Below, one piece after another: positions 27,706-34,582 of a DNA stretch of 34,692 nt. Position 1 is the first letter of the stretch. Every line of letters starts with the position of its first letter. The DNA lies in contig JABICI010000088.1 of assembly GCA_018652335.1 (NCBI GenBank), positions 1 through 34,692 on the forward strand, given 5' to 3'. The notes under the pieces are model-generated. The model did not search any database and was not told where the DNA came from. It saw only the letters and a list, made by a program, of their open reading frames with translations. The DNA is from Flavobacteriales bacterium. Its GTDB lineage: Bacteria; Bacteroidota; Bacteroidia; Flavobacteriales; BACL11. The position numbers were made by a program, and so were the translations under genes.

Positions 27706-28075
27706 GGGGCTGACTGGATTTGACAGCAAATGCATAAAATAGTAAGCATGTTGAGCATTGTATTTTAGCTCATAAATATTAAAATTCAACTTTTTTAAAC
27801 GGCGAAAATAATTACGCTTTAGCTGCCTAATTTATATAATTACGTAAGCTTTTGTCTCTTTTATAGGACCTCCTGACTCCTATAGATCATGAGGCATAAT
27901 TAAGTTCAGGATAGTTAGATTATTGCTTTTATAATCTAGCAAAATTTTAAAAAGCTAAGAATTAATTTTGGTTGCTTTTAACCTACTTAATTTCGAAAAT
28001 TAAAAAAAGATAAACATGTAGAAAGTTATTATATCCTTTGTTTGGACGGGGGTTCGATACCCCCCAGCTCCACCA
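27706..28075 (+). ncRNA. ssrA: tmRNA with encoded tag GENNYALAA
   Basis: 5' GGGGCTGACTGGATTTGACAGC; 3' GGTTCGATACCCCCCAGCTCCACCA; acceptor stem GGGGCTG/CAGCTCC with G3-U wobble; tag ORF ggcgaaaataattacgctttagctgcc TAA at 27801-27830. Confidence 0.96.
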
Positions 28076-28118
28076 AAGCGGAATCCATCTCATTATGAGT
28101 TAAGATTCCGCTTTTTTT
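28076..28118 (+). terminator. Intrinsic terminator of ssrA
   Basis: AAGCGGAATC...GATTCCGCTT followed by T tract. Confidence 0.85.
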
Positions 28119-28259
28119 ATTTTGTTAAATAAATTTTACAAGCTCTATTTAAATATACCTATTACTCCAATTTTGCCCGTGTGTGCGTGAAAGACCATCA
28201 CCGATTACCATATAATTACCTTTTAAGATTTAGGCTACCCCCCAAAAAAAAATTAATAT

Positions 28260-28323: not shown

Positions 28324-28331
28324 TATTTTTG
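28324..28331 (+). promoter_or_regulatory. -7 promoter element TATTTTTG upstream of the lipocalin-like lipoprotein
   Basis: Exact TAnnTTTG match about 30 nt before the ATG. Confidence 0.45.
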
Positions 28332-28361
28332 GGGATTATTAATTTAAAAAACTATAAAAAA

Positions 28362-28853
28362 ATGAATTTAAAAACATCAATTATTCTAGGTTTAACTTTA
28401 ACCTTACTTTCAATAGTATCATGTAGTAAAAGTGATTCAGTTGATCCTATTAATCCATCTAATATTATTGCAGAAAACACTGCTAAACTTATTGGTTCTT
28501 GGGAAATAGAAAACATTATTACTGCTAACTGTACTGATCCTAATGATAATGAAACTCTTGAATCTGGCTGCGAAACAGAAGAAGGTTCAGAAGTATGTCT
28601 TTTAGGTATACAAACATTTTTTCAAGATAATACATTTTCTCTTGAATATATTATGACAGTGGATGGAGATACAATGGAAACAGAAACAGATTTTGGTAAT
28701 TGGGAGATATTAAACAGTGATAATATTTCAATTACTACAGAAGAAGAAACCGTTAGTAAAAATTATGTATTGACTGACAATACATTTAGTATGATTTCAA
28801 CTGATGGTGAATTTGGATGTGATGAAACAATAAATGCAATAAAAAACAAATAA
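28362..28853 (+). CDS. Lipocalin-like lipoprotein
   Basis: MNLKTSIILGLTLTLLSIVSC lipobox; AKLIGSWEIENI ... TFFQDNTFSLEY ... GNWEI pattern of lipocalin-like domains; ATG at 28362 chosen. Confidence 0.7.
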   Translation: MNLKTSIILGLTLTLLSIVSCSKSDSVDPINPSNIIAENTAKLIGSWEIENIITANCTDPNDNETLESGCETEEGSEVCLLGIQTFFQDNTFSLEYIMTVDGDTMETETDFGNWEILNSDNISITTEEETVSKNYVLTDNTFSMISTDGEFGCDETINAIKNK

Positions 28854-28902: not shown

Positions 28903-29967
28903 ATGAATTCGTCACTTGTTCATATTATACCATCAGTAGCTATTTTTTTTAATGCTTTGTTTTTAGGGATATTGTTCTTAATTGTAAAATCTAAAAATAA
29001 AAAAGCAAATAATTATTTAGCAATTTTTCTTCTGTTACATTGCATAAATATTTTAAATAACTTTTTTGGTGAATTTGAAGAGCTATTTGAAATTCATTTT
29101 GTTTTTGAGCCTATTTTATTTGTTTTTCCTCTTTTATATTTTTACTTGATTTCTACGATTAATATTAAAAGAAAAATATGGTATTATTTTTTCTTTATAC
29201 CAGGGATTATTTTAAATATTTTACTTAATAGTAATTTTTTGTTAAGCGAAGAGTTATTAGTCAATATTGAGATATTTTTTTATACAATAGAGATATTGAT
29301 TCCAATTTTAGCTTATATGTTATTACATGAACACAATGAGAAAATACGCAATTATTTTTCAGATATAGAAAATAAAACACTTCAGTGGCTAAAAAATATT
29401 TTCACTATAAATGTAATTATTCATTTTTTAAATTTAATTACTTTTTGTTTTGATTTATCAACTTTAGAAAATCTAGAATTCTTAATTGATTCAACTTCTA
29501 TATTTCTTACAGTTTTTATGTTATTCTATATAGGTTATAATGGATATGCACAACATAAAATTATCTTTAATAATAGTTTGAATTTTTCAAATTATAAGTC
29601 TAAAGTAATCGAAGAAAAATTAAGTTTAATTAAGTTTAATTCAATAAAGAAACATATTCAGTCTGAAAAGATTTACTTAGATGAGAATATTAATTTAAGA
29701 GCAGTTTCATTGATTTATAATTTAAATGAAAATGAACTTTCTAGGATGATAAATAAGTTTGAAAAAACTAACTTCTATTTTTTCATAAATAAATTTCGTG
29801 TACATGAATTTAAAGAACTTATTAAATTATACAGGCATGATAAACTTACGCTATTTTCAGTTGCTAATGAAGCAGGGTTTAAAAATAAATCAACTTTTAA
29901 TACTTCTTTTAAAAGGTTTGAAGGAATGACTCCAAGTTCATATTTAAAAAGTATTGAAAATGAATAA
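28903..29967 (+). CDS. AraC-family transcriptional regulator with N-terminal multi-TM domain
   Basis: About 220 aa of hydrophobic TM segments, then AraC HTH (LSRMINKFEKTNFYFFINKFRVHEFKEL...FSVANEAGFKNKSTFNTSFKRFEGMTPSSYLKS). Confidence 0.88.
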   Translation: MNSSLVHIIPSVAIFFNALFLGILFLIVKSKNKKANNYLAIFLLLHCINILNNFFGEFEELFEIHFVFEPILFVFPLLYFYLISTINIKRKIWYYFFFIPGIILNILLNSNFLLSEELLVNIEIFFYTIEILIPILAYMLLHEHNEKIRNYFSDIENKTLQWLKNIFTINVIIHFLNLITFCFDLSTLENLEFLIDSTSIFLTVFMLFYIGYNGYAQHKIIFNNSLNFSNYKSKVIEEKLSLIKFNSIKKHIQSEKIYLDENINLRAVSLIYNLNENELSRMINKFEKTNFYFFINKFRVHEFKELIKLYRHDKLTLFSVANEAGFKNKSTFNTSFKRFEGMTPSSYLKSIENE

Positions 29968-30841
29968 TATTCAAAAAATAATAATTTTTAGTTTTGTAGG
30001 AATAGTATTTGGCTCTTGTAATAAACATGATATTACAGGATATGTACCTGCAGTAAACGACATAAATAATAGAACTGCATTAGAATACGCATATGAATGT
30101 GAAAATGAATTAGGACCACTTCCTAGATTTAGTTGTTCTGATGCTATTGAAGTTCCAACAACAAAAAATGGTGTACCTGTATCATTTCCACAGGGAGAAG
30201 AAGGAAGTGGTAGTACAAATCCAAATGATTGTGATCATCCATGGGCATTTGGAATGGCTTGTCAAACAGGAAATAAAATAGGACGTTATGCAGGTCTAAA
30301 TCTTGATGGTTCCGAAAATTCAGATGTTGTATTTATAACATTTTGTCGTGATGGTGGGTTAGGAGTTATTGGATATAAGTATTCTACTGGTCAGACTTGT
30401 TTTTTTTCTATAAAAGATGGTTACAACACTAACAATCCTCCAAAACCTGGTGAAAATGGATATAATAATGCATGGATGAGCCCAAGAGTTGTTGCTGATG
30501 ATAAGTGTATGAATTGTCATATGGCAAGTCCTTTTTTACACACACCAGCTGTGAATCAATTATACAACCCAAATAATACTTCTGAATTACTTGTTCCAAT
30601 GACTGGAAATAATCCATACTCTATAATTGGGGCTGAGTTTCAACAGCCACATACTACAGGAATTCAAAATTCATGCACTTCATGTCATAGACCTCAGTGC
30701 ACTCAGCATTTTGAAAATTATCCATTAGACGAATTGGTTATGCCTCCACCTTTTCAAAACGCAACCGACTTTGATCATAGTACAATTTCAAATGCAGACA
30801 GACAGGCAATCAGGGATTGGTGTAATACCTTAAACTTATAA
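29960..30841 (+). CDS. Lipoprotein with two CxxCH heme-binding motifs
   Basis: Lipobox FGSC; CMNCH and CTSCH motifs; ATG at 29960 overlaps the end of the AraC gene. Confidence 0.72.
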   Translation: MNNIQKIIIFSFVGIVFGSCNKHDITGYVPAVNDINNRTALEYAYECENELGPLPRFSCSDAIEVPTTKNGVPVSFPQGEEGSGSTNPNDCDHPWAFGMACQTGNKIGRYAGLNLDGSENSDVVFITFCRDGGLGVIGYKYSTGQTCFFSIKDGYNTNNPPKPGENGYNNAWMSPRVVADDKCMNCHMASPFLHTPAVNQLYNPNNTSELLVPMTGNNPYSIIGAEFQQPHTTGIQNSCTSCHRPQCTQHFENYPLDELVMPPPFQNATDFDHSTISNADRQAIRDWCNTLNL

Positions 30842-30850
30842 ATTAATACA

Positions 30851-31222
30851 TTGAAAAATTACACACAATTAAAAATTTGGTTAAACGCGGTTTTTTTCAC
30901 TAGCTTGATGATGGGGTGTACAAAAGGGTACATCCCTCAGGATATTGAGTCAAATCCACCATATAATAGTGATACTATAACTTATGAATCGAAAATTAAG
31001 GACATAATTTCTAATAATTGTATCAGTTGTCACTCAGAAAGTAATCCCCAGGGAAATTTGCTTTTAGAAAATTATAATCAAGTACGTAGTGCATCCGAAA
31101 ACGGAACATTAATTCAAAGAATTAATGATGTATCAAACCCAATGCCTACTACTGGATTAATGCCATCATCAAAGAGAGCATTCTTTGACGAATGGGTTCA
31201 AGATGCATTTTTAGAAAATTAA
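30851..31222 (+). CDS. Small c-type cytochrome-like lipoprotein (one CxxCH)
   Basis: Lipobox LMMGC; IKDIISNNCISCHSESNPQGNLLLENYNQV...NPMPTTGLMP (candidate Met ligand); apparent TTG start. Confidence 0.78.
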   Translation: MKNYTQLKIWLNAVFFTSLMMGCTKGYIPQDIESNPPYNSDTITYESKIKDIISNNCISCHSESNPQGNLLLENYNQVRSASENGTLIQRINDVSNPMPTTGLMPSSKRAFFDEWVQDAFLEN

Positions 31223-31228
31223 TAATTA

Positions 31229-31774
31229 ATGAAAAGAACAAACTTAATAATTATTATACTATTCACTAGCATTGTTTGTAATGCCCAAAAGTATTACACA
31301 AGATCTGGTGTAACAGAATTCAATGCTTCAGAAAAAGCTTTTGAGCCTGTAGTAGCGATAAATAACAGTACTACAGCTATTTTTGACATTAATACAGGCG
31401 AAGTAGTTGGTCAAGTTTTTATTGCATCATTTGAGTTTAAAAATGCACTCATGCAAGAGCATTTTAACGAGAATTACATGGAAAGTAGCTCGTATCCTAA
31501 AGCTATTTTTAAAGGCAAGATTGATAATTTCTCAAAAGATAGATTAAAAACAGTAAGTGAATTTGATTTAGTAGGAATACTTACAGTTAGAGGAAAAGAA
31601 AAAAAAATCTCAACAAAAGTATTAGTGAAAGAAATAAACAAGAAATTAATTATAACATCAAACTTTATGGTTAAACCTGAATACTTCTATATTAAAATTC
31701 CTTCAATTGTTCAAGAAAAAATTGCCAATCAAATTCAAATCAGCATTAAGTATGAGCTTGTTGAAAAAAAATAA
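31229..31774 (+). CDS. YceI-like secreted protein
   Basis: Signal peptide ending VCNAQ; FKNALMQEHFNENYMESSSYPKAIFKGKI and LTVRGKEKKI are YceI-like. Confidence 0.82.
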   Translation: MKRTNLIIIILFTSIVCNAQKYYTRSGVTEFNASEKAFEPVVAINNSTTAIFDINTGEVVGQVFIASFEFKNALMQEHFNENYMESSSYPKAIFKGKIDNFSKDRLKTVSEFDLVGILTVRGKEKKISTKVLVKEINKKLIITSNFMVKPEYFYIKIPSIVQEKIANQIQISIKYELVEKK

Positions 31775-32147
31775 AATCATAGTCATTTCTTTTCTCGTGG
31801 TTATGTTTGGAATTGGAGTTTACACATTTTATAATTATGTGTTTTCAGAGCCTACAAAAGTAATAAACATAGCTTCTGAATTTATAGGTCAATCTGATGA
31901 ATTTAAATATTTATTTACTGAAGACCTTGAAGGGTGGAGCAATAAAGTTGTAGAAATAAAAGGCACTATAACTGGGATTTATGATAACGGTGTTCTTCTC
32001 GATGAAAATATATATTGCCAATTTGATCAAAATACAGACTTATCTTCAATTGTAGTTAATAAAGAGGTTGTAATAAAAGGAAAAGTTGTAGGGTTTGATG
32101 AGTTGTTAATGGAAATAAAATTAAATCAATGTATTATCATACAATAG
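31752..32147 (+). CDS. Membrane-anchored OB-fold protein (tRNA_anti-like domain family)
   Basis: Single N-terminal TM helix; VVEIKGTITGIYDNGVLLDENIYCQF...VVIKGKVVGFDELLMEIKLNQCII; ATG at 31752 chosen. Confidence 0.7.
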   Translation: MSLLKKNKIIVISFLVVMFGIGVYTFYNYVFSEPTKVINIASEFIGQSDEFKYLFTEDLEGWSNKVVEIKGTITGIYDNGVLLDENIYCQFDQNTDLSSIVVNKEVVIKGKVVGFDELLMEIKLNQCIIIQ

Positions 32148-33046
32148 GTAAATCACTTTTATTAATGTTTTTTTTAGGCTTTTATTCAACGAATGCTCAA
32201 GAAAATAATTTATTCAAAGAATTAAATAATTTAACCAATGATAAAGTAACCTATTCGCCCCCTGCATTTAAAGCTTTACAAATTGGCAATTTACAATCTA
32301 CCAAAATGGTTGGACAAAAAGAATTTTACATGCTTGTTGCACATAGGTTTGGCTATCTTAAGGGCGGTATCAATGACTTCTATGGATTAGATCAAGCAAA
32401 TACGAAAATTCAGTTTCTTTATGGAATTAAAAAGAAAATTCAAATAGGTATCAGTAGGGATAGCTATAATAAAACTTATTCTGGTTCAGGAAAAGTTAGC
32501 ATAAAAAAGCAATCAGAGAGTTTCCCCATTAATCTAGTTTTGTATAATAGTATGGATATCAACACCTTAATAAAAAAAATATCTTATCCAGGCCTATTAT
32601 TTTTTGATCGTTTTGCATACACGACGCAAGTATTAATGTCTAGAAGATTTTCAGAAAATTTATCTTTAGCAATTACACCGGTTTATGTGCGAAAAAACTT
32701 AATAGATTTGAATTACACAAAAAATCCTATTCTAACTTCTAATGAACCTTTAAGTTTTATCACTGAGCCTTGGAATCAATATCTTTTGGCTTTAGGAGGA
32801 AGATATAAGTTTTCTAAAAGAATGAGCTTAAATATGGATTATGCTTATAATTTAAGTAAAAATAAAAATTCATTATATAAAAATCCTCTAACTGTTGGTA
32901 TAGATATAGAAACTGGAGGACATGTTTTTCAACTTCTTTTCACTAACTCTAGATCAAGTAGTGATGCAGTTTTTTTAACTGAAACACTTGGTGATTGGTC
33001 TAAAGGCGACATTTCATTTGGATTTAATATTTTGAGGATATTTTAG
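32129..33046 (+). CDS. DUF5777-like outer-membrane beta-barrel protein
   Basis: Signal peptide ending STNAQ; KEFYMLVAHRFGYLKGGINDFYGLDQANTKIQFLYGI; alternating barrel strands; terminal aromatic FGFNILRIF. Confidence 0.75.
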   Translation: MYYHTIGKSLLLMFFLGFYSTNAQENNLFKELNNLTNDKVTYSPPAFKALQIGNLQSTKMVGQKEFYMLVAHRFGYLKGGINDFYGLDQANTKIQFLYGIKKKIQIGISRDSYNKTYSGSGKVSIKKQSESFPINLVLYNSMDINTLIKKISYPGLLFFDRFAYTTQVLMSRRFSENLSLAITPVYVRKNLIDLNYTKNPILTSNEPLSFITEPWNQYLLALGGRYKFSKRMSLNMDYAYNLSKNKNSLYKNPLTVGIDIETGGHVFQLLFTNSRSSSDAVFLTETLGDWSKGDISFGFNILRIF

Positions 33047-33068: not shown

Positions 33069-33109
33069 AAGTTCGAAACTGGGACCGAGAGGTCCACCAA
33101 AAGAAACCC
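33069..33109. repeat. Direct repeat copy 1, containing hairpin GGACC-GAGA-GGTCC
   Basis: aagttcgaaactgggaccgagaggtccaccaaaagaaaccc; near-identical copy at 34540. Confidence 0.85.
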
Positions 33110-33131: not shown

Positions 33132-34508
33132 TTATTCAATAACCATTTTCTTCTTCACTGTTCCATCATCATAAATGTAAAAAAGAGGTTGATTCTTTAA
33201 ATTAGAATTTCTTCCAATAATATCAATGATAAATTTTAGATTATACCTTTTATTGCTTTCACTTACATAGGTAGAATTTGAGATTGAGAAAGGATATATA
33301 CAAAAAGTTGAAGGTGTACCAGCAAACCAACCTGTTATTAAATGAAGTTCACCATTAAATGGAAATGAAATAGTTTGTTGAATTTCTAAATCTCTTATTT
33401 CAGTATTAAAAGAAACCAGTCCAAAAACATTTCCAGCTGTATTGATGTTTTCATAAGCAACTGTATCTCCATTATTATCTAATAAAACAAACCCACAATA
33501 TGCAAAATCATTACTATTACTAATATTAAGTGTTTGAACGTCAAAAGTAACTTGATTAGGAATAGTTGAAGAATCAATTGAAGATTGAAAAAACATTAAG
33601 GAATCACAAAAAGCTTGAGAACAATTGTTACTATAGTACATTTGAGGATCTAAAGTCAGTAAAAAGCATGTGTTATCCCAGTTTAAATTTGAATAAGAAG
33701 TATCATCAACATTAATACATGTTAAATTAGGATTGCCAAAAAATCTAATAGCACAAATTGGAATATTAGTGTTATTTCCATTTCTCAAATCAATATTCGA
33801 AAGATTACATGCAGAAACATCTACAATATTTAATAAACTATTATATGTTAAGTCTAAAGATGTTATAGGATTTTGATAACAAGAAAAATTTTGAAGATTT
33901 ATATTATTCGATAAATCTAATGATGTTAAACTATTACCACCACATTGAAAAAGTCCTAAATTAATATTATTTGAAATATCTAACGAAGTTAACTGATTAG
34001 CTACACAACTTAATTGTGTCAACGCAGTACAATTTGTTACATCAAGATTTTGTAATTGATTTTGACTACATATTAAAGTTTCTAAATTAAAACAGTTAGA
34101 AACTTGGATAAATGACAAGTTATTTTGATCACATCTTATATACTCTATAGAACTACTTTCAACAAATAATAAAGTATCCAAATCATTTAATCCACAATTT
34201 ATATATTCTAAATTAGGACTATTAGCTAAATTTAATGTTCCCGAAAGAAATTGAGCTTGTGCATCAAAGTATTCTAATGAGAAAAAAAATTGAATACCTG
34301 TAATATCATAAATGTATTCTAATGTAGTTTGAGGAAATGCAATATCTAAGTAAGTTATTGTATCAATAGCAGATAAACTTACAGAATCATCTAATAAATT
34401 ATCAACTCCTAAATTGATTAATTCCTGCTCAAAAGCATCATCAGGTATATATATATTCTGACTAAAACTAATTAAAGGAAAGCAAAATATTAAGAGTAGT
34501 TTCTTCAT
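33132..34508 (-). CDS. Secreted leucine-rich-repeat protein with T9SS type A C-terminal sorting domain
   Basis: Signal peptide ISFSQN; repeats LTSLDISNNINLGLFQCGGNSLTSLDLSNNINLQNFSCYQN; C-terminus IIDIIGRNSNLKNQPLFYIYDDGTVKKKMVIE. Confidence 0.88.
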   Translation of the reverse strand: MKKLLLIFCFPLISFSQNIYIPDDAFEQELINLGVDNLLDDSVSLSAIDTITYLDIAFPQTTLEYIYDITGIQFFFSLEYFDAQAQFLSGTLNLANSPNLEYINCGLNDLDTLLFVESSSIEYIRCDQNNLSFIQVSNCFNLETLICSQNQLQNLDVTNCTALTQLSCVANQLTSLDISNNINLGLFQCGGNSLTSLDLSNNINLQNFSCYQNPITSLDLTYNSLLNIVDVSACNLSNIDLRNGNNTNIPICAIRFFGNPNLTCINVDDTSYSNLNWDNTCFLLTLDPQMYYSNNCSQAFCDSLMFFQSSIDSSTIPNQVTFDVQTLNISNSNDFAYCGFVLLDNNGDTVAYENINTAGNVFGLVSFNTEIRDLEIQQTISFPFNGELHLITGWFAGTPSTFCIYPFSISNSTYVSESNKRYNLKFIIDIIGRNSNLKNQPLFYIYDDGTVKKKMVIE

Positions 34509-34539: not shown

Positions 34540-34582
34540 AAGTTCGAAATAAGGACCGAGAGGTCCACCAAAAAGAAACCCT
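34540..34582. repeat. Direct repeat copy 2, containing hairpin GGACC-GAGA-GGTCC
   Basis: aagttcgaaataaggaccgagaggtccaccaaaaagaaaccc; differs from copy 1 by 3 substitutions and a 1-nt indel. Confidence 0.85.

Follow-up and report, generated by a model that had tools for sequence, protein, structure and literature searches.

A lipocalin, a monoheme lipoprotein and a DUF5777 barrel as a possible envelope electron-transfer module of Bacteroidota

A run of six same-strand genes in a contig of a Flavobacteriales bacterium (JABICI010000088.1, assembly GCA_018652335.1; the window, hereafter, is this whole stretch of 34,692 nucleotides) raises the question of whether a membrane-bound AraC-type regulator, two lipoproteins with heme motifs, a YceI-like lipocalin, an anchored OB-fold protein and a DUF5777 beta-barrel make up one functional system and, if so, what such a system would do in the cell envelope. 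A previous sequence-only reading had proposed a self-regulated envelope redox module, parts of which were said to co-occur in other Bacteroidota. The gene set is real, conserved and widespread in this phylum, and the operon may be a rare, probably transferred variant of an unnamed envelope electron-transfer module of Bacteroidota, a reading drawn from sequence comparisons to which we assign about even chances. The core of the module, as delimited by the same comparisons, is formed by the DUF5777 barrel, a secreted YceI protein and a monoheme lipoprotein (Cyt2), with the anchored OB-fold protein often present. A new examination of the open reading frames (ORFs) and their overlaps in the window confirmed the six genes, which are given here with their main sites.

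28903..29967, + strand: AraC-type membrane regulator, about six transmembrane segments plus HTH_18 (ORF, Pfam, hydrophobic segments)
29960..30841, + strand, ATG at 29960: Cyt1, predicted diheme lipoprotein, rare (ORF, motifs, relatives)
30506..30520, + strand: CMNCH heme-c motif of Cyt1, invariant in Cyt1 relatives
30674..30688, + strand: CTSCH heme-c motif of Cyt1, also compared in Cyt1 relatives
30851..31222, + strand, TTG at 30851: Cyt2, predicted monoheme c-type lipoprotein, core component
31019..31033, + strand: CISCH heme-c motif of Cyt2
31142..31144, + strand: Met98 of Cyt2, probable axial heme ligand, in an MP pair
31229..31774, + strand: YceI lipocalin with signal peptide, periplasmic, core component
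31752..32147, + strand, ATG at 31752: OB-fold protein with N-terminal membrane anchor, frequent component
32129..33046, + strand: DUF5777 outer-membrane beta-barrel, core component (Pfam, model)
32342..32344, + strand: His72 of DUF5777, in 156/158 sequences
32921..32923, + strand: His265 of DUF5777, in 156/158 sequences

The compact layout was read correctly from the letters: the AraC gene overlaps cyt1 by 8 nt, the OB-fold gene overlaps yceI by 23 nt and the barrel gene overlaps the OB-fold gene by 19 nt, while cyt1 and cyt2 lie 9 nt apart and cyt2 and yceI 6 nt apart. Likewise, the multi-membrane-segment AraC regulator and the three heme motifs are present as described, with Pfam E-values for the window proteins of 1.2e-12 (HTH_18), 3.5e-10 (YceI) and 3.8e-79 (DUF5777). 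Both Cyt1 and Cyt2 start with lipobox-type signal peptides and score weakly against cytochrome models. The YceI protein (PF04264, 40.9 bits against a cut-off of 23.7) has a Sec-type signal and is secreted in soluble form rather than as a lipoprotein. As for the anchored OB-fold protein, its single N-terminal membrane segment was found, whereas its fold has to be deduced through relatives: the window copy has no significant Pfam match, and its counterpart in locus L032 matches the tRNA_anti-like family PF12869 at 1.7e-20.

How far this arrangement extends was followed in 160 loci taken around DUF5777 genes, in which ORFs were called and for which iterative profiles were built from the window proteins (L-numbers are labels of loci and G009 is that of a relative genome); neighbours were counted up to five genes away from each of 157 DUF5777 genes across Bacteroidota. 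DUF5777 itself scores above the cut-off in 157/393 genomes across the phylum, is absent from all 14 control genomes and occurs in 41/60 near relatives. YceI is its most constant partner (127 loci), followed by monoheme Cyt2 (122) and the OB-fold protein (56), and all three are absent at only 3/157 loci, at least one of which sits at a contig end. Measured against more distant genes of the same loci, the enrichment gives Fisher p values of 1e-11 to 1e-27, in a test whose loci are related, chosen around DUF5777 and not independent. The co-occurrence suggested at the outset is borne out, and the neighbourhood of DUF5777, YceI and CxxCH lipoproteins shows a linkage beyond chance. On the other hand, the six genes do not travel as one block: YceI, Cyt2 and DUF5777 form the core, whereas the AraC regulator and the diheme lipoprotein accompany DUF5777 in 3/157 loci (L072-L074). 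No open-access paper that mentions DUF5777 was found, and in a table on iron limitation in Riemerella a YceI gene appears, but no module.

Neither gene order nor replicon seems to be fixed. Arrangements such as Cyt2-YceI-OB-DUF5777, DUF5777-Cyt2-YceI and divergent pairs were found, and YceI or Cyt2 lies next to DUF5777 in all family groups sampled, a set in which one family may be counted twice, under a group code and under an NCBI name. Plasmids of Aureibacter, Persicobacter, Hymenobacter and Emticicia carry YceI beside a protein that NCBI names "DUF5777 family beta-barrel protein", and the Emticicia plasmid brings together CcsA, a sigma factor, a barrel, a Rieske protein, DUF5777, YceI and a cytochrome in one place. 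In a plasmid of Hymenobacter volaticus, a second DUF5777 gene precedes a truncated hemoglobin and hemA (L243:1-2903), which hints at a link with the metabolism of nitric oxide or heme. LhgO and PurB, also seen beside DUF5777, were rejected as functional partners, because their proximity is explained by vertical synteny confined to a few families.

Every single-domain match of the Cyt2 profile (125/125) retains a heme-c motif, which is CxxCH in 103 and CX4CH in 22. This latter spacing is scattered over many lineages (for example L033, L057 and L124). In a 114-row alignment of Cyt2 proteins encoded beside DUF5777, Met98 and Pro99 are conserved at 97% and 96%, respectively. Because the heme-c motif and the Met98/Pro99 pair are kept, Cyt2 is read as a His/Met heme protein, that is, probably a monoheme, Met-ligated c-type cytochrome. 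No curated Pfam family scores over its cut-off with the window Cyt2; the genome of the organism encodes a cytochrome c assembly protein. The small lipoprotein with its CISCH motif is as described at the outset, but the segment NPMPTTGLMP is no dedicated Met-rich site, since its first Met probably serves as the axial ligand; a Met-rich copper site was rejected for this reason.

Other redox proteins can be found in the place of Cyt2. A Rieske protein occurs near the barrel in seven loci, six of which lack Cyt2 (all with the YceI-DUF5777 pair) while the seventh has it, and an eighth locus (L095) shows a looser Rieske motif; a cupredoxin occurs in five loci, two of them without Cyt2. In Pfam, the Rieske assignment is confirmed for L149, L157 and L105 (3e-10 to 3e-8), and the cupredoxins of L141 and L108 match Copper-bind; the carrier label needs at least six changes on the DUF5777 tree. 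These replacements point to an interchangeable electron carrier, which may be a cytochrome, an iron (Rieske) protein or a copper (cupredoxin) protein. Some neighbours, including a cupredoxin and a DOMON-like protein, bear type IX sorting tails, and therefore some partners would act at the cell surface; the sorting tail made our own DOMON profile unspecific, and only the Pfam-checked protein was used.

YceI and NrfD proteins are both linked to quinones in general. In these loci they exclude each other, YceI being present in 127, NrfD in 8 (L066, L150, L159, L163, L166, L167, L170 and L176) and both together in none, a pattern that, with the quinone link, may mean that a single terminus is fed in two ways. 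The NrfD subtype combines a Cyt2-DUF5777 pair with a Tat-type Fe-S protein, an NrfD protein (4.8e-31), a protein of about 283 amino acids that has no assigned function and, mostly, a class I cytochrome. Its Fe-S and NrfD proteins are closest to DsrO/DsrP and QrcC/QrcD, so that Qrc and DsrMKJOP are the nearest curated families, although the scores stay under the curated cut-offs and none of these genes is in the window. Two of the loci (L066 and L150) also carry a hexaheme lipoprotein, which in L150, the one scanned, is weakly DmsE-like. A cluster gene of the ethylbenzene-dehydrogenase heme-domain type lies near 6/157 DUF5777 loci, three of them also with NrfD, and one such neighbour was confirmed as EB_dh (4.8e-22). 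The subtype with NrfD is apparently an undescribed quinol-to-outer-membrane cluster. Regarding YceI, members of the family bind ubiquinone-8 or isoprenoids, and in Burkholderia a YceI protein and cytochrome b561 protect against lipid peroxyl radicals, the authors proposing that b561 re-reduces the bound quinone (PMC9113575).

The barrel of the window matches DUF5777 (PF19089) over the whole model (positions 1-247 of 247) with 265.9 bits against a cut-off of 23.1, and has no relative in the PDB by sequence. An AlphaFold2 model from 17 sequences predicts 12 strands (pLDDT 79), and Foldseek matches it to general porins, with the best target-normalised scores for NanC-like 12-strand porins (TM 0.67). 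Barrels of MtrCAB have 26 strands and that of Cyc2 has 16 (PMC8406198). With only 12 strands, the DUF5777 barrel would be too small to hold a cytochrome inside; an Mtr-type conduit was rejected on barrel size, and the analogy with porin-cytochrome conduits that had been drawn from the gene content fails in its strict form, given the 12-strand model and the match to small porins. Fusions of barrel and cytochrome were not found, as none of the 157 DUF5777 ORFs carries a heme motif. His72 and His265 are both missing in the two sequences that deviate. These two are paralogues from one genus (L097 and L178) in which Asn and Leu replace both histidines, and would represent one joint-loss event at most. 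The idea that both histidines form one bis-His heme site in the lumen is not supported, since strand parity makes them lipid-facing.

Altogether, the idea of an envelope redox module is well supported by the carrier swaps, the exclusion between YceI and NrfD, the type IX-tailed neighbours and the kept heme motifs. The most likely pathway would start with YceI taking electrons from an inner-membrane quinol and carrying a prenylated redox cofactor of the menaquinone type across the periplasm, where it would exchange electrons with Cyt2 docked on the barrel. Finally, the electrons would reach the outer membrane or the cell surface and quench an oxidant there. In the NrfD subtype, a quinol-type complex of NrfD and Fe-S proteins would replace YceI and supply this barrel and lipoprotein along a different path. 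A relay through Cyt2 at the barrel is favoured because the lipocalin is the same as in the LcoA-BcnA system of Burkholderia, but its partner is of the outer-membrane type. In its most explicit form, the barrel and the monoheme lipoprotein would be a new outer-membrane redox terminus, supplied by a YceI quinol ferry or an NrfD feed, with exchangeable heme, Rieske or copper carriers and with the barrel histidines holding or docking the carrier, a full scheme that we consider doubtful as a whole.

Several observations weigh against such a relay. A recognised carrier is absent near the barrel in 27/157 loci, and a 12-strand barrel alone, if the model is right, could not pass electrons through its lumen. 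The signal for surface export of lipoproteins (LES) consists of acidic residues right after the lipidated cysteine (PMC5080379); averaged over the Cyt2 family, positions +4 to +8 past the cysteine are acidic, which is a loose likeness, and the window Cyt2, which starts with CTKGYIPQDIE, fits the signal poorly. The window YceI is divergent, with Arg121 where 84% of the others have His and Tyr152 where 91% have Asp, replacements that suggest a changed function or ligand, and no PDB entry is significantly related to it in sequence. Which donor and which acceptor the relay finally serves is a guess.

The same gene set could serve antioxidant recycling only, as a Bacteroidota counterpart of LcoA-BcnA in which the YceI quinol would quench lipid peroxyl radicals, Cyt2, Rieske protein or cupredoxin would re-reduce or drain it and the barrel would be a dock. 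The function described for the YceI family (PMC9113575) and the constancy of YceI as a partner fit this explanation, as do the extracytoplasmic function (ECF) sigma factors and FecR-type regulators encoded next to the module, and both systems share a secreted YceI-family lipocalin linked to a redox protein under stress-type regulation. However, the partner in Burkholderia is an inner-membrane b561, whereas here it is an outer-membrane-type c-cytochrome lipoprotein (or Rieske protein or cupredoxin) plus a barrel; no protein of the operon matches cytochrome b561 in Pfam, none was recognised in the inspected clusters, in which no systematic search for it was made, and neither the surface-targeted redox proteins nor the DmsE-like hexaheme of the NrfD subtype would be explained. 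We regard this alternative as unlikely, though less so than those that follow. Extracellular electron transfer, with barrel and lipoprotein passing electrons to outside acceptors as in porin-cytochrome systems or Cyc2, is rather improbable in our view. It would account for the cupredoxin and DOMON-like neighbours with type IX secretion system (T9SS) tails and for the subtype with NrfD, Fe-S protein, class I cytochrome and hexaheme, whose lipoprotein, together with the combination of heme proteins and an outer-membrane barrel, also recalls MtrCAB; moreover, one heme c and one outer-membrane barrel as separate products resemble a split Cyc2 (PMC8406198), the system of Fe(II) oxidation. Nevertheless, Cyc2 is a fused protein, whereas the window has separate genes, YceI and OB-fold partners and a smaller predicted barrel; the window also lacks a multiheme conduit gene that such a barrel would in any case be far too small to enclose, most loci have no multiheme protein, and the strand numbers and the missing fusions described above argue in the same direction.

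If the barrel instead served to transport a metal or some small molecule, with the redox proteins acting on the cargo at the membrane (for example in reductive release or detoxification), its position among small specific porins such as NanC in Foldseek would be expected, and the cofactor-neutral swapping of carriers would be compatible too. Against this, the constant neighbours include neither uptake genes nor a TonB receptor or an enzyme for a substrate, and we think this explanation distinctly improbable. As for the most trivial case, co-location without joint function, synteny within one clade can mimic conservation, as happens in family f1, where the block MFS-Cyt2-YceI-DUF5777-LhgO is vertical synteny. 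Yet the linkage persists across gene orders, divergent strands, other families and plasmids, which largely refutes this reading and leaves it with hardly any probability.

Besides the core, the operon of the window contains an uncommon set of genes, and further elements are found at its 5′ side:

27706..28075, + strand: tmRNA gene, context and possible integration site (ARAGORN; RF00023 match)
28324..28331, + strand: -7 promoter-like element TATTTTTG of the Bacteroidota type (consensus match only)
28353..28853, + strand: Lip0, lipocalin-like lipoprotein (weak Lipocalin_4/NlpE match)

Lip0 ends 49 nt upstream of the AraC gene and is counted as a seventh member, because the same cluster holds it in L072, between AraC and Cyt2. 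The motif TAnnTTTG occurs a single time between tmRNA and AraC, at 28324 ahead of Lip0, as a consensus match and not as evidence of a promoter. Relatives of the AraC regulator adjoin Cyt1 in L072-L074 and L204, and Cyt1 also exists outside the module, either alone (L203), with AraC and as a tandem (L204) or truncated (L205). Within the class, Cyt1 occurs in 8/395 genomes, a count that includes the window genome and several weak partial matches; it is found in none of the 59 other nearest relatives and yet with 82% identity in another family. In a search for how Cyt1 is carried, only distant homologues were found on plasmids of Proteobacteria, and none in phages. Those of Burkholderia pyrrocinia and Salipiger abyssi (26-28% identity) are the third genes after a molybdopterin hydroxylase and its 2Fe-2S subunit (L239:2688-6909 and L240:2553-6906). 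They represent an uncurated family of cytochrome subunits, with no Pfam or NCBIfam match over the cut-off. Since these homologues, which share both CxxCH motifs and many cysteines with Cyt1, follow molybdenum hydroxylase genes, Cyt1 may be by analogy an electron-accepting cytochrome, although no molybdenum enzyme genes adjoin it in the window. Its predicted structure (pLDDT 41) is unusable. The AraC regulator, Lip0 and Cyt1 would be an accessory unit that probably adds another point of entry or exit for electrons.

Elsewhere, the regulator linked to the module is frequently an ECF sigma factor (near about 30 loci), and FecR-type regulators lie beside the module as well. The sigma linkage fits a stress response, and an oxidative-stress function of the module may be inferred. 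Seventeen of the ECF-sigma loci encode a membrane protein with a C-terminal domain resembling an outer-membrane barrel. This protein, seen in L181:4912-6201, L242:4121-5374 and about 16 other loci, adjoins the ECF sigma gene and joins an anti-sigma-like N-terminus and one membrane segment to the barrel-like domain.

A last question is related to the origin of this copy. The window DUF5777 groups with those of L072-L074 (99 SH-aLRT) and then with Tenacibaculum and other Flavobacteriaceae, apart from the 22 sequences that come from its own family. The segment directly after the tmRNA (28076-28131) is common to the relative G009 (L219), where the tmRNA is followed by a serine recombinase gene. 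The distribution of Cyt1, the placement in the DUF5777 tree and this shared flank, taken together, indicate that the operon was probably acquired horizontally near the tmRNA. The 3′ side of the tmRNA is a possible integration hotspot; no recombinase was recognised in the window. The assembly of the organism lacks the native DUF5777 region, with PurB as part of it. On the other side of the operon, two copies of a repeat (33071-33104 and 34542-34575, AAGTTCGAAA...GGACCGAGAGGTCCACCA) flank a leucine-rich repeat (LRR) gene (33132-34508), the repeat being a 30-base element with a GAGA-loop hairpin and a CCA end. In relatives it is dispersed between genes (several copies in L071; also L226), and for this reason the two copies were rejected as att sites of a cassette; the element looks like an undescribed intergenic repeat of the family of this organism.

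In any case, if the proposed relay is correct, the module would be an undescribed envelope redox route between quinones and the outer membrane in a common bacterial phylum, and the YceI proteins of Bacteroidota would gain a defined electron partner.

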